DNA of 64,000 bases from the NCBI GenBank assembly GCA_946188155.1, contig CAMHUC010000002.1:1-64000 (forward strand), given 5' to 3'. The position numbers and the translations under genes were made by a program. Under the pieces are notes generated by a model. The model did no database searches. It was not told the DNA's origin and saw only the letters and a list, made by a program, of their open reading frames with translations. Of this stretch, positions 4,993 to 12,683 are shown piece by piece. How positions within the stretch are numbered: the stretch's first letter is position 1; each line of letters opens with the position of its first letter. Source of the DNA: an uncultured bacterium (GTDB lineage: Bacteria > Bacteroidota > Bacteroidia > Bacteroidales > Bacteroidaceae).

Positions 4993-7900
4993 TTACTTAA
5001 TTACTACCTTCTTACCATTATTGATATACAATCCCTTCTTCGTGGGTTTGCCGGAGAGTTTGCGACCATTCATGTCGTACCAACCGTCTGTCGTAAACTC
5101 GCCAGTACGGGTATCGAGAGTGCCAATACCTGTCGTCTCACCATTTGCTCCAAGCAGTCGCACGGTGATTGTCTGAGGCATCTCGTCTGTCGGCGATGCA
5201 TGGCGGCTCATGGCACGCGCTCCGTTAAATTCCTCACCGTTCTTATACTTAAGGAAGCATCGAAGCGGAGGCACTGCTGCACCCTCTTTGGCATACACGA
5301 ACTCACCTGCTTTCACCTCAATGCCATCCACAGTCTTGTCCTTCGAGGCAAAACCGTATGCATTGCCTGTGAACGGAGTCGTGCCGTAGGTCAGTCGGGT
5401 GTAGGTGCCGACAAACTGCCAGTCGGTGTTGGTGCTTCCCTCGTTGCTGGTCTCGGTCTTTAGTGTCACCATACCGCCGTTAAGGTCGAATGTTACTTTG
5501 CCGTCTGTCAAGTCGCTCGTTACAGGCTCCACTAGATATGGCGTATTGGCCTGAAGTGGCGAGGGGGGTGTCTGCATCGTGGCAATCCATTGTTCTTCAA
5601 CCTTTTCCACTCCCACGAATTGATAGATTTTTGCACCTGTCAGCGTCATACCGTCTGTCATAGTAAACGGCAACATCAGTGTGGCATATTTGCCATTGGA
5701 GAAGTTGCGCTCCAGTGTCACAGACTTAACCGTGATGGCATCTGGTATGTTCACCGCGTCGTTTGCTGAGCCTGTGAATGTAGCGTAGAATCCGTTTTGA
5801 TCCTGCGTAACCTTCAGTGCACTATCGTCAGATACCGTCTTTGCCGTAATAGTCAGCGTTCCGTTCGTGGTCTCGGTCACAACATAATTACCACTTTCAT
5901 CTTTTGTGGTATTGAGTGTTACCCCAGTAAAGGTCACATCGTAGGTGCCCGTATTCGTACCGCTGCCGCTGGCGGTGACTCCATTGAAGGTCAAACCCTC
6001 CACGCTACTCGTGAAGCCTGTCAAGGTCTGCGCCTCGCCGCTGTATTCCTTCGTGCCGCTGTTAGCGGTCAGAGTAACGCTTGCGGGATTGATGGTGAAC
6101 GTCTTATTCACACTGCCAATCGATGCGTAATTGCCCTTGAATGTAACGGTCACCGTCGCCGTGCCGACATTGGTATTGTTCGTGTAGGAATACTCATAGT
6201 CCGTGCCTTTGGTGAGGCTGAGCGAGCCAGCCAGCACGAGCGGTTCGGGGGTAATCTCGCTGCCAGTGTAGGTCTGGTCGGGAACATTGTCTATAACACC
6301 AACTGTTTTCAGGATAGAAACACTCCACTTATCGTTGCCGACATCGGTCATGGTGATGTCATAGAAGCCCGATTCGCTATTATAATCCACTCTAAAATTC
6401 GTGCCATTTCCATACTCAGGGAATGTCCCTGTGCCGCCGGAATAAGGAATCGTTGCATCGTAGGTATTGTTGTCCAAAAGAAATTTTCTATAGCTGTATC
6501 CATAATCATATTTCAAAATCTTATACGATTGCCCCTGCTGAAGGTTTACCGTAGTCACACCGTCGTAGATGGTGGCCTCCGTAACAAAACTATCTGGTCC
6601 AGAATATCCCCACGCAAACTCCGTCGTGCCATGAACGCCTTGCTCAAACACTGCACTTACCGTCACGTTGCTCTTGGGCATGAAGAAGCTGTTGCCCGTG
6701 GACTCAACGTCGTTGTTCTGAGCGTCCTTTACGACAAGCCTGCTCAGACGGTAGCCGAAGTCGGGCGTGGCGGTGATGGTTACCTTATCGCCATACTTCG
6801 CCGTTGCTGCCGTACATGCTATTGTACCGTGTTCATTGTTGCCGACAATGGTGATGGTGTAGTCGGTGTCGTCCTTCAGTGTGATGGTGCGGCGGTCGCC
6901 GTCCTCGATAATGGTGAAGTAGGTGCTGGCGCTGGCCGTCACATCAGTCTCGGTCTCATTCTCAACATGCATATAGGTCACGCTCTCGGTGATTGCCGAT
7001 GCGTCAACCTTGTCGATGGTATCATAGATTTTGATGGCGCCAATTGTAGCCGTACATCCATAATTGATGGTGCCTTTGCCGAGCCGTGCGTTGACCGTAC
7101 CACCTTTGATTACGATGTCACCAATGGTAGCGGTCTTTACGTTCCCGACCGTTCCCGTGCCGATGCCGTTGCCGCCGCTTGCGGTGACGGTGCCGCCCTC
7201 AATGACGACGCTGCCGCCCGTGGCGTTAGCGTCCCACGTTCTGCCAAGACCGATGCCTGCAGACGCACTTCCGCCTGTGGCATTCAGCGAGCCGCTGCCC
7301 TTGATGGTGAGCGTAGTGCCGGAGCTGCCAATCTGAATGCCTGCTGTTCTATAGATAAGAGTACCATCAAGTGAAGTAACTCCAACAGCATTCTCCCCAA
7401 CAAGCGTAATCTCCGCTGTTCCATCACAGACGATGCCGCCCGTGATAGTCGCATTGTTGAGCGTAATCTCTGCATTGTTTGCAATCGTCACGGTATGGCT
7501 CGTTGCGCCAATAAGTATATTTCCGTCAGCAGCCGTGAAATCACTGTTGGCGGTTGCCAAATAGAGCGTGTTGCTGCTCTCCGTGGTGGCTGTGATGTTG
7601 ATGTCGGCTTCTGCGACGGTCACGGTGTAAATACCGTCGGCATCGGGTTCAAGCGTATTCATGCCGTCGGAAACATTGGTGGCTGCATATCCGAAACTTG
7701 CCGCAAATTTAATGACAGTTCCCGAAATGTACTTGCCATTGCCGTCGGCTGCGTTCGTTGCGCTGACGATTTCCATATTTGCGGGCAGGGTAACAGAATA
7801 AGTAGTTGAGGTAGATGCCGTTACGGTCACATCTGCCGCAGGCACGGTGAAAGTGTAAATTCCGTTTCCTGCATCTGTTAGCGGCACACTGCCATTATTC

Positions 7901-8922
7901 ACTTTGAGAGTGTTTGCGTCTATCAGATGACTGACGGTAAGAGTCACTGTAGCACCGGCAAGCGCCTTATCCACGCTGCTCGTAACAAGACTGCTGATAC
8001 CATCGTCAATCGTGATGGTGCGATAAATCTTGGTGTCTTCTTCCGTTATCTCCGTGGAGCAAGCTTCGTCACTAAAATACTTATGGCACATGGAGCATTG
8101 CCAATACTCGATGTTCACGTCTGTGGCATCGTGGTGTTCGCCCGTGTGGGCAATGATCGGTGCTATAACATCAGACTCGGCAAGTTCAGTTGCGCCCGTC
8201 TCGTCGGTGAAATATTTGCCGTCATTGCGTAAATAACAGTCTCGCTTGATGCCCGTTTCGGTACAGGTCGCAGCCCTTACCGTCAGGTGGGTGTAGTAGA
8301 CATCAGGAGATGAGCCGTAGAACTCCAACTCGCTTAGTATGCTCTGATATGTCGAACCAACATCGTATATTTCAAAGCGGAAGTACTGATACTGATTGTC
8401 GCCGTTGTTGTTGCAGGCAATTTCAAAGCGTGAGCCGTTGCCAAGCGAGGAATTGGAAGAATGAATCATCGTCCATTCATCGCTCTCGTTCTGTTTTGCT
8501 TTTAACGCCCACGATGTAGGTTTCCAATTCTCATTGATCGAATTGTCGTATGTCAGAACATAGCCTTTGGGAATGATAGGCGCATCGGCGTGAAACTCCA
8601 CATAGGCTGGGTCTTCCGTGCCGCCTGCGAAATCATTTGCACTTTCTCCAAGTTTTTTCATTACCCACCACTTTGTCGATGTATTTCCATCGACAAAGTT
8701 TCCATAAGATTTTGTTCCAGCCGTAGCCGTAAAGCCCGTGAACAGCGTGTAGTCAGTGCCGCCCACGGTGATGGTTGATGTCGTTGTCGCCCACGCCGTC
8801 ATGGTCGTGAGCATTGCAAGGACGAGCGTCATGGCCATCCGCCTTGCTGCACCGTATAGCCCAGTGGCTGCTAATGCCGTAAAGAATCGCATAATTGTTA
8901 GTTTTATATTTATCTTATTCAT
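4993..8922 (-). CDS. Large secreted/surface protein (1309 aa): discoidin-like N-terminal region, repeat and MBG-type domains, C-terminal sorting-like tail
   Basis: Signal peptide, FVDGNTSTKWW...YVEFHADAPI discoidin-like segment, DVPDQTYTGSEITPEPLV MBG-type repeats, ending GWYDMNGRKLSGKPTKKGLYINNGKKVVIK. Confidence 0.75.
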   Translation of the reverse strand: MNKINIKLTIMRFFTALAATGLYGAARRMAMTLVLAMLTTMTAWATTTSTITVGGTDYTLFTGFTATAGTKSYGNFVDGNTSTKWWVMKKLGESANDFAGGTEDPAYVEFHADAPIIPKGYVLTYDNSINENWKPTSWALKAKQNESDEWTMIHSSNSSLGNGSRFEIACNNNGDNQYQYFRFEIYDVGSTYQSILSELEFYGSSPDVYYTHLTVRAATCTETGIKRDCYLRNDGKYFTDETGATELAESDVIAPIIAHTGEHHDATDVNIEYWQCSMCHKYFSDEACSTEITEEDTKIYRTITIDDGISSLVTSSVDKALAGATVTLTVSHLIDANTLKVNNGSVPLTDAGNGIYTFTVPAADVTVTASTSTTYSVTLPANMEIVSATNAADGNGKYISGTVIKFAASFGYAATNVSDGMNTLEPDADGIYTVTVAEADINITATTESSNTLYLATANSDFTAADGNILIGATSHTVTIANNAEITLNNATITGGIVCDGTAEITLVGENAVGVTSLDGTLIYRTAGIQIGSSGTTLTIKGSGSLNATGGSASAGIGLGRTWDANATGGSVVIEGGTVTASGGNGIGTGTVGNVKTATIGDIVIKGGTVNARLGKGTINYGCTATIGAIKIYDTIDKVDASAITESVTYMHVENETETDVTASASTYFTIIEDGDRRTITLKDDTDYTITIVGNNEHGTIACTAATAKYGDKVTITATPDFGYRLSRLVVKDAQNNDVESTGNSFFMPKSNVTVSAVFEQGVHGTTEFAWGYSGPDSFVTEATIYDGVTTVNLQQGQSYKILKYDYGYSYRKFLLDNNTYDATIPYSGGTGTFPEYGNGTNFRVDYNSESGFYDITMTDVGNDKWSVSILKTVGVIDNVPDQTYTGSEITPEPLVLAGSLSLTKGTDYEYSYTNNTNVGTATVTVTFKGNYASIGSVNKTFTINPASVTLTANSGTKEYSGEAQTLTGFTSSVEGLTFNGVTASGSGTNTGTYDVTFTGVTLNTTKDESGNYVVTETTNGTLTITAKTVSDDSALKVTQDQNGFYATFTGSANDAVNIPDAITVKSVTLERNFSNGKYATLMLPFTMTDGMTLTGAKIYQFVGVEKVEEQWIATMQTPPSPLQANTPYLVEPVTSDLTDGKVTFDLNGGMVTLKTETSNEGSTNTDWQFVGTYTRLTYGTTPFTGNAYGFASKDKTVDGIEVKAGEFVYAKEGAAVPPLRCFLKYKNGEEFNGARAMSRHASPTDEMPQTITVRLLGANGETTGIGTLDTRTGEFTTDGWYDMNGRKLSGKPTKKGLYINNGKKVVIK

Positions 8923-10982: not shown

Positions 10983-12086
10983 TCATTTGGGCATTTTCTG
11001 GCCATAACCCTCATGTTCCAGTTTCTGCTTGGCACGATAGTAAGCCAAATATGACGAAAAGCCCGATGCGAGGGCGGCAGACTCCTTGGTTTCGTCTGGG
11101 TGCTGAGACAGATATTGCTCGTAGTGAGCCAGACGAAGACTGTTCACATAGTTGGCGAAAGAGCCGAAACGGCGCTGGAAGGTAAGCGAGACATTGGTGC
11201 GGCCAAGATGCGTGTGAGCCACGACATCATCAATCTTCAGGTGGCAGTCAAGATAGGCACGCTGGCCTTTGACGTATGCCTCTATCTTGATAGCGGTCTG
11301 TTCCATCTGCTCATCCTTGTTATCATCTGCCTGTTCGTCGCGGCTTTCGGTGATGTCGGTTTCCGATGACGAGAGTATGGCTTTGCGTCGCCAGACAGGC
11401 ATGACGTTGAGCAGCAACAGGATGTTGGATGCTGCCAGGAGCACATTTTCAATGGCCATCAGCAGCGGCGAGTCCCAGATGTAGGCGGGCCAGAGCAGCG
11501 GTGTGAAGAGCACAGGGGCGAGCCAGACACGACGGGCATATTCGGTGGGGAAGTCATCGGGGTTGGAATAGTTCTGGTCGCGGGCCTCGTCCATCCAGTG
11601 TTTCACCTGCCACATGGCAAGCCCGGAATAGACCATCATGGTGATGCTCTCAATGAGTACCACGTAGTTCCAGATGCGCAGTCCTTGGGCATTGAGGATT
11701 CCAGAGGGTAGCCAGGCATCGAGGGCTGGTACGAGCATAGTGGCGACAACTATCAGTGCAGCCGCCCAACTGACGGTTTTCCACTGGTTCCATTGCTTCA
11801 CCGTGCCGAAGAAACAGAGCAGCAATACGCCGCAGTAGAAATAGTAACAGGCTGGGAAGTATGATTTCTCCAGCATCCATGCCGACGGACTGTCCGGGTT
11901 GATGATATATGGTAGCAGGATAGTGGCGCAAAGGTAAATAAGGCACTGTAGTTTGCGGTCGGGCCAGATATATTGGTGGCGTTCCTTGGGGGTGCGACAG
12001 GTGTGGAACCATCGTACCGCTGAAAAGGTCCAGCAAGTGGTCAGATACATCAGTGCTGCCAATCCGTAGAAATAGTATTCGCTCAT
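10983..12086 (-). CDS. Membrane-anchored AraC-family transcriptional regulator
   Basis: About seven hydrophobic segments N-terminally; C-terminal HTH region LKIDDVVAHTHLGRTNVSLTFQRRFGSFANYVNSLRLAHYEQYL...SGFSSYLAYYRAKQK. Confidence 0.75.
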   Translation of the reverse strand: MSEYYFYGLAALMYLTTCWTFSAVRWFHTCRTPKERHQYIWPDRKLQCLIYLCATILLPYIINPDSPSAWMLEKSYFPACYYFYCGVLLLCFFGTVKQWNQWKTVSWAAALIVVATMLVPALDAWLPSGILNAQGLRIWNYVVLIESITMMVYSGLAMWQVKHWMDEARDQNYSNPDDFPTEYARRVWLAPVLFTPLLWPAYIWDSPLLMAIENVLLAASNILLLLNVMPVWRRKAILSSSETDITESRDEQADDNKDEQMEQTAIKIEAYVKGQRAYLDCHLKIDDVVAHTHLGRTNVSLTFQRRFGSFANYVNSLRLAHYEQYLSQHPDETKESAALASGFSSYLAYYRAKQKLEHEGYGQKMPK

Positions 12087-12168
12087 CGTCGTCTCTTTTT
12101 ATTATCTCACTGCTTGCAGGGCGAGTACTATCAATATGGGCATAAAGAAAGCGCAGGCCCCGTCCATA

Positions 12169-12294
12169 CTCTCACTCAGGCCCGCTACAGCCCCTATATA
12201 TCTATGGATTGGAAACTGCGCTATGGTGCGCAGCCCCAATGATATATAGGTTTGCTCTTGAAATCTCGTTTCGAGGTAGCGGTTCGAGTGAGAG
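12169..12294 (-). promoter_or_regulatory. Candidate structured RNA leader (nested multi-stem)
   Basis: CTCTCACTC(12169-77)/GAGTGAGAG(12286-94); CCGCTAC(12182-88)/GTAGCGG(12276-82); CCTATATATC(12193-202)/GATATATAGG(12241-50); ATTGG(12208-12)/CCAAT(12236-40); CTGCGC(12216-21)/GCGCAG(12228-33); CTCG(12265-68)/CGAG(12272-75). All nested. Confidence 0.6.
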
Positions 12295-12339
12295 ATTGTG
12301 AGCAACAAAAAGATCTGCATCCCTTTCGAAATGCGTCTG

Positions 12340-12347
12340 CAAAGTTA
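12340..12347 (-). promoter_or_regulatory. -7 element TAACTTTG upstream of the structured leader
   Basis: Reverse complement of caaagtta. Confidence 0.45.
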
Positions 12348-12604: not shown

Positions 12605-12609
12605 CAGCG

Positions 12610-12683
12610 TGGACCAGGTAGGGCTTGAACCTACGACCTCCAGATTATGAGTCTGTTGCTCTAACCAACTGAGCTACAAGTCC
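12610..12683 (-). tRNA. tRNA with CAU anticodon (Met, or Ile2 if lysidine-modified)
   Basis: GGACTTGTAGCTCAGTTGGTTAGAGCAACAGACTCATAATCTGGAGGTCGTAGGTTCAAGCCCTACCTGGTCCA; D stem GCTC/GAGC and T stem GTAGG/CCTAC intact. Confidence 0.9.

Follow-up and report, generated by a model that had tools for sequence, protein, structure and literature searches.

Conserved structured RNA leaders in Bacteroidales with a predicted termination switch, mostly upstream of genes for exported proteins

In a Bacteroidaceae contig (CAMHUC010000002.1, of which we analysed positions 1 to 64,000, a stretch of 64,000 nucleotides referred to below as the window), a minus-strand segment between a promoter box and the gene of a membrane AraC-type protein has a striking propensity to fold, which raises the question of whether it is a regulatory RNA, and if so of which genes and by what means. 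A preliminary description had placed six nested stems at 12169-12294, and all of them were recovered on folding 12086-12335 of the minus strand (-100.3 kcal/mol, against -65.9 +/- 4.6 for 200 dinucleotide shuffles, none of which reached that energy; z = -7.4). The -7 box (TAACTTTG, 12347-12340) and the start of the regulator at 12086 were also found at the spacing it had given. The extent it proposed was too small, since the conserved element runs from 12305 to 12138. Beyond those stems we find a crossing helix, a GGC/GCC hairpin, a 3' tail that contains a U-tract (12143-12156) and, next to the promoter, a 5' hairpin (Table 1); the 40 nt 5' of the element fold at -8.5 kcal/mol compared with -4.5 for shuffled sequence. 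The author of that description had recognized no riboswitch core, and cmscan agrees: none of the 4227 Rfam models reached its gathering score over the window's copy of the element, and five homologous loci gave no credible match at E <= 1. Taken with the evidence presented below, the segment is almost certainly one copy of a Bacteroidales family of conserved structured cis-acting RNA leaders.

Table 1. Positions of the leader features and of the downstream gene in the window
Feature	Position	Strand	Partner or basis
Promoter -7 box TAACTTTG of the leader	12340-12347	-	sequence; TAnnTTYG position in other copies
5' hairpin GCATTTC-GAAA-GGGATGC, presumed transcript start	12317-12334	-	folding
Whole conserved RNA element	12138-12305	-	covariance-model match, R1 E = 1e-46, R2 E = 9e-33
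A1 5' strand UUGCUC	12300-12305	-	12252-12257; crosses helix B
A1 3' strand GAGCAA	12252-12257	-	12300-12305
B0/B1 5' strand	12286-12294	-	12169-12177
B0/B1 3' strand	12169-12177	-	12286-12294
B2 5' strand	12276-12282	-	12182-12188
B2 3' strand, inside P4 hairpin loop	12182-12188	-	12276-12282
Small hairpin CTCG-AAA-CGAG (12272-12275/12265-12268)	12265-12275	-	fold; 84% paired across copies
P3 5' strand	12241-12250	-	12193-12202
P3 3' strand	12193-12202	-	12241-12250
Short GGGG/UUCC stem		-	fold
P3b 5' arm CUGCGC	12228-12233	-	12216-12221; 94% paired
P3b 3' arm GCGCAG, shared switch strand	12216-12221	-	12228-12233 or tail 12151-12156
T2 5' strand UCCAUA	12203-12208	-	12163-12168 in terminator state
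T2 3' strand UAUGGA	12163-12168	-	12203-12208
Hairpin P4, GGC 12190-12192/GCC 12179-12181	12179-12192	-	pairing counted in copies
Tail CUGCGC, T1 3' strand	12151-12156	-	12216-12221
U-tract UUUCUUUA directly 3' of T1, terminator signature	12143-12150	-	U fraction across copies
Regulated gene of this copy: membrane protein, weak AraC-type HTH_18 match	10983-12086	-	PF12833 E = 1.3e-4, below Pfam cut-off

Compensatory change preserves the nested structure in homologues, so that this structure is under selection and not a chance fold. In the RNAalifold consensus of 26 core sequences, aligned with MAFFT and not fitted to structure, 23 of 43 pairs had changed on both sides. Among 89 distinct copies, 95.2% of the pairs of the main structure are standard and 37 of 39 show compensatory change; this larger alignment was fitted to the structure, and the independent MAFFT alignment agrees with it. 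Its covariation score is 0.688, compared with 0.218 for shuffled alignments and at most 0.121 for slid ones. Helix by helix in the same 89 copies, B2 is paired in every sequence with compensatory changes at 7 of 7 pairs, B0/B1 is 97.6% paired over 10 consensus pairs (nine with compensatory changes), and P3 is 94% paired with such changes at 10 of 10 pairs. A1, P4 and the helices T1 and T2 discussed below lie outside the covariance model, and we scored their pairs in this alignment of 89 copies. A1 is paired in 96% of cells across its five inner pairs, four of which show compensatory changes. P4 is also 96% paired, and 22 sequences carry the C-G to U-A change that turns GGC/GCC into GGU/ACC. 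Two further candidate helices were set aside: A2 (UCUC with a local GAGA) is 72% paired and, being confined to some members of the family, was left out of the general model, and the P5 stem, formed by the tail with a downstream GUGC, covaries no more than sequence conservation explains.

How widely the element occurs was assessed with blastn and with two covariance models, R1 built from the 26 core sequences and R2 from the 89 diverse copies. A blastn search with the leader gave matches in 91 of 399 genomes of the genus, the strong ones mostly at 77-86% identity, and R2 found one to nine copies in each of 102 of 248 genus genomes (about 40%). At the level of the family, R1 matched 96 of 301 genomes spread over 13 of 30 genera. 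The element occurs only rarely outside its family Bacteroidaceae: R1 matched nine of 247 genomes in the order sample, the genome under study included, and this genome alone in the class sample, and in the phylum sample R2 found it again plus one doubtful match and nothing else. That isolated match (L195, E 6e-5) has no clear tail motif and was left uncounted. Almost all carriers named by a pattern search belong to Prevotella or Prevotellaceae; most are metagenome-assembled genomes, many of these from ruminants, and a single named strain, Prevotella sp. tf2-5, is among them.

A mobile DNA palindrome (MITE) or another repeat would also be present as several scattered copies in each genome, and the mark of a MITE would be near-identical copies at unrelated positions, with ends that form inverted repeats. 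R1 finds two strong copies in the genome under study, the second 74% identical over 178 nt, and R2 adds a third, weaker one at C5:54534. These copies are few and diverged, their changes are compensatory, and strand and position relative to promoter and gene are fixed. We therefore rejected the repeat explanation, which is hardly credible. The weaker copy (G000:C5:54534-54683, L194) and L187:2402-2552 represent a diverged subtype in which GGCUC/GAGCC replaces A1; by eye, the former sits about 170 nt 5' of an agmatine deiminase-like gene.

The position of the copies indicates in what kind of molecule the element resides. A TAnnTTYG box, a promoter assigned by consensus only, stands at a median of 40 nt 5' of the element in 121 of 138 copies (10% in shuffles). 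A same-strand open reading frame of at least 80 codons starts no more than 130 nt 3' of the element in 113 of 126 copies, compared with 11 of 126 for the mirror arrangement, and the median gene start is 63 nt past the element (51 nt in the window copy). For comparison, the median 5' UTR of B. thetaiotaomicron is 32 nt (PMC7366714). Given this context, the element is most likely an mRNA leader. Together, the upstream promoter box, the covariation, the adjacent gene and the lack of an Rfam match strongly support the original proposal of a cis-regulatory RNA, one that belongs to no known class.

An own promoter box and a terminator-like 3' end would also suit an independent small RNA whose 3' end lies at the U-tract, with the downstream gene transcribed from its own promoter. 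Against this, the same-strand gene keeps its tight spacing in the copies counted above, a second promoter box between element and start codon occurs in 2 of 113 (the same as in shuffles), and the spacing is constant while the downstream genes vary. We regard such a small RNA as very unlikely, and the element as a leader whose prematurely ended transcript could additionally act in trans. GibS of B. thetaiotaomicron is comparable as a conserved RNA of about 150 nt in Bacteroidetes with its own start, but it is an intergenic trans-acting RNA (PMC7366714), whereas the element described here lies directly before the following gene.

The leader had been described as that of an AraC regulator. The regulator does lie directly downstream in the window, but the tie is incidental: among the loci first examined only five (L001, L009, L010, L031, L034) have the membrane AraC-type gene there, a sixth locus added later (L075) has a downstream gene that starts similarly, and elsewhere the leader precedes large secreted proteins, a radical SAM protein, an HlyD-type protein and others. 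Since most copies stand before other genes, the regulator is just one of the leader's targets. What many targets share is an exported look: 104 of 133 downstream proteins (78%) were scored as exported, compared with 35 of 100 open reading frames from longer flanks and 18 of 37 from the window, by a simple and crude hydrophobicity rule and against a small background. Pfam searches of 127 downstream proteins found BspA-type LRR_5 repeats in 15, LRR_8 in 11 and OMP_b-brl in four, and further targets carry Ig-like or other surface domains or belong to acyltransferases, radical SAM proteins, a DISARM DrmD-like SNF2 helicase, an EcoRI-type methylase and AIPR. A GH5 cellulase follows the second copy of the genome under study. 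No common metabolic pathway that would point to a ligand was found among the downstream genes. In L151, L164, L166 and L169 the leader lies directly 5' of defence-like genes (AIPR, DISARM DrmD-like SNF2 helicase, EcoRI-type methylase).

How might such a leader act on the gene that follows? The fold initially described is one of two competing structures, and the terminator half had been overlooked. In the second structure the 3' arm of P3b (GCGCAGAC) pairs with the distal tail (GUCUGCGC) to form T1, which is 96.1% paired over 8 pairs, five of them with double changes (15 double-change cells compared with 6.8 in shuffles). T2 (CCAUA/UAUGG), a second helix next to T1 that backs the distal pairing, is 93.5% paired, with compensatory changes at 5 of 5 pairs and 16 double-change cells compared with 2.4; this column-based count discriminates, whereas a sequence-only permutation test for the longest helix in any register did not. 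Each of the two helices comprises six pairs in the window, all Watson-Crick in T1. T1 and P3b use the same strand and thus exclude each other, and both are kept in 83 of 89 copies (at least 5 of 6 pairs of P3b and at least 7 of 8 of T1). Five copies show a concerted change of the three strands at one position, from G/C/G to A/U/A. The tail is followed by a U-tract whose U fraction, position by position in 136 copies, is 0.92, 0.89, 0.93, 0.65, 0.75, 0.80, 0.85, 0.45 and 0.87. A G+C-rich stem, a U-tract directly after it and a mutually exclusive alternative stem are thus all present, and the competition of T1 with P3b, next to this tract, is the anatomy of a predicted intrinsic terminator set against the main fold.

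From this anatomy we propose a termination switch, which we consider probable in its full form. In one state, B, P3 and P3b would be formed and the tail free, and RNA polymerase would continue into the gene. In the other, adopted when no stabilising signal is present, the tail would invade P3b, T1 and T2 would together form the intrinsic terminator, and the message would stop before the gene. A cellular signal, either a small molecule or a protein, would stabilise the first fold, so that the leader would act as an attenuator or riboswitch-like switch, mostly for exported proteins. Computed energies favour the B/P3/P3b fold over the nested T fold by about 13 kcal/mol on average, and termination would therefore need kinetics, a signal or a factor. 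The terminator stem is also unusual in enclosing the long stretch from P3b to the tail, which in the window copy measures about 60 nt. The proposed switch has been assigned strand by strand, which makes it directly testable.

Control at another level would be expected if the leader, as a switch or thermosensor in cis, acted on translation or mRNA stability rather than on termination. A subset of copies can indeed form a helix in which sequence just past the tail pairs with the bases ahead of the start codon (for instance GUUAGUGC/GUAYUAAC), and such helices of at least 9 bp occur in 21% of copies compared with 7.5% when partners are mismatched. They are nonetheless missing from most copies, whereas nearly all copies keep the U-tract that directly follows T1, and we consider this mode of action unlikely. 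A leader peptide encoded by a short open reading frame (MDGACAFFMPILIVLALQAVR) had also been suggested, and attenuation could likewise involve the 72-codon frame that surrounds it. The short frame of 21 codons does exist in the window (12102-12167), but homologues read either ATGGAC or ATGGGAC and so differ by a 1-nt indel immediately behind the start codon, and conservation is seen at nucleotides, not at codons. No short reading frame is conserved among them, and the leader peptide, an extremely improbable reading, was rejected.

Within the termination model, the signal may be an RNA-binding protein or an antitermination factor rather than a metabolite, a version to which we give serious though less than even weight. 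The many functionally diverse targets are as expected of a global protein regulator, and the conserved unpaired motifs CGAAY, ACCUCGAA and UCCAUAG are possible protein sites. More tentatively, the family could be a new Bacteroidales-specific riboswitch class, in which a ligand or second messenger would govern premature termination of messages for variable surface proteins, lipoproteins, surface-modifying enzymes and some defence genes. A frequent, highly structured family absent from Rfam would constitute a new control layer in gut and rumen Bacteroidales, and a single signal would link surface proteins (BspA-type leucine-rich repeats, beta-barrels, lipoproteins), a cellulase, a membrane regulator and a few defence genes.

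At some loci the tail, 24 nt that read GGGGYCTGCGCTTTCTTTATGCCC or differ little from it, stands alone with the other parts of the element missing (L097:3090-3136, L078:193-226, L020:882-941, L017:3080-3150 and L093:2148-2219). In L097 and L078 it is joined to CAATC, which resembles the 5' end of the element (TTGCTCAATC), after promoter-like sequence, and these two look like natural internal deletions of the leader. The lone tails of L097 and L093 still precede the same kind of surface-protein gene, for which the switch model would predict unregulated expression.

The element resembles transcription-attenuating riboswitches in lying directly 5' of a gene, in its conserved multi-helix fold and in a predicted, mutually exclusive U-tract terminator that borrows a strand of that fold. 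It differs from known riboswitches in that it has no known aptamer or Rfam class and in that its targets are mostly exported proteins and not one pathway. Structured RNAs of the same phylum include Bacteroidales-1 (RF01693), Bacteroides-1 (RF01694), Bacteroid-trp (RF01692) and other motifs (PMC2864571); those with Rfam entries gave no cmscan match here at gathering or E-value thresholds. We found no published description of this leader family in literature searches, and neither Prevotella nor Bacteroides appears in the text of PMC11109978 or of PMC8632094. PMC8040213 reports candidate structured RNAs of human microbiomes, likewise predicted in Bacteroidetes, among them HMP2_1881 (108 bp) near radical SAM genes, which some of our copies also precede; HMP2_1881 differs in size, and an overlap is possible. 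We present the element as a new family of cis-regulatory, attenuator-like leaders, of which a bare prior prediction is possible among the 3161 candidates of PMC8040213.

A few further observations concern the genes around the leader. In L011, L025-L028, L032, L033 and L036 the surface-protein genes are near-identical in their promoter region and signal peptide (LTLAAMLTMAQTAWA) and divergent in the remainder, and many contigs stop close to them, which looks like a recombining multigene family. The window itself contains, at 4993-8922 and in the same orientation as the leader's gene, a 1309-codon open reading frame for a secreted repeat protein that resembles many leader targets in style; no leader match for it was found within the window. 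Finally, the segment 12449-12604, which closely follows the minus-strand tRNA-Met gene at 12609-12683, contains repeats of the TGCGAACAC box together with a perfect inverted repeat of 13 bp and resembles the remnant of an integration site.
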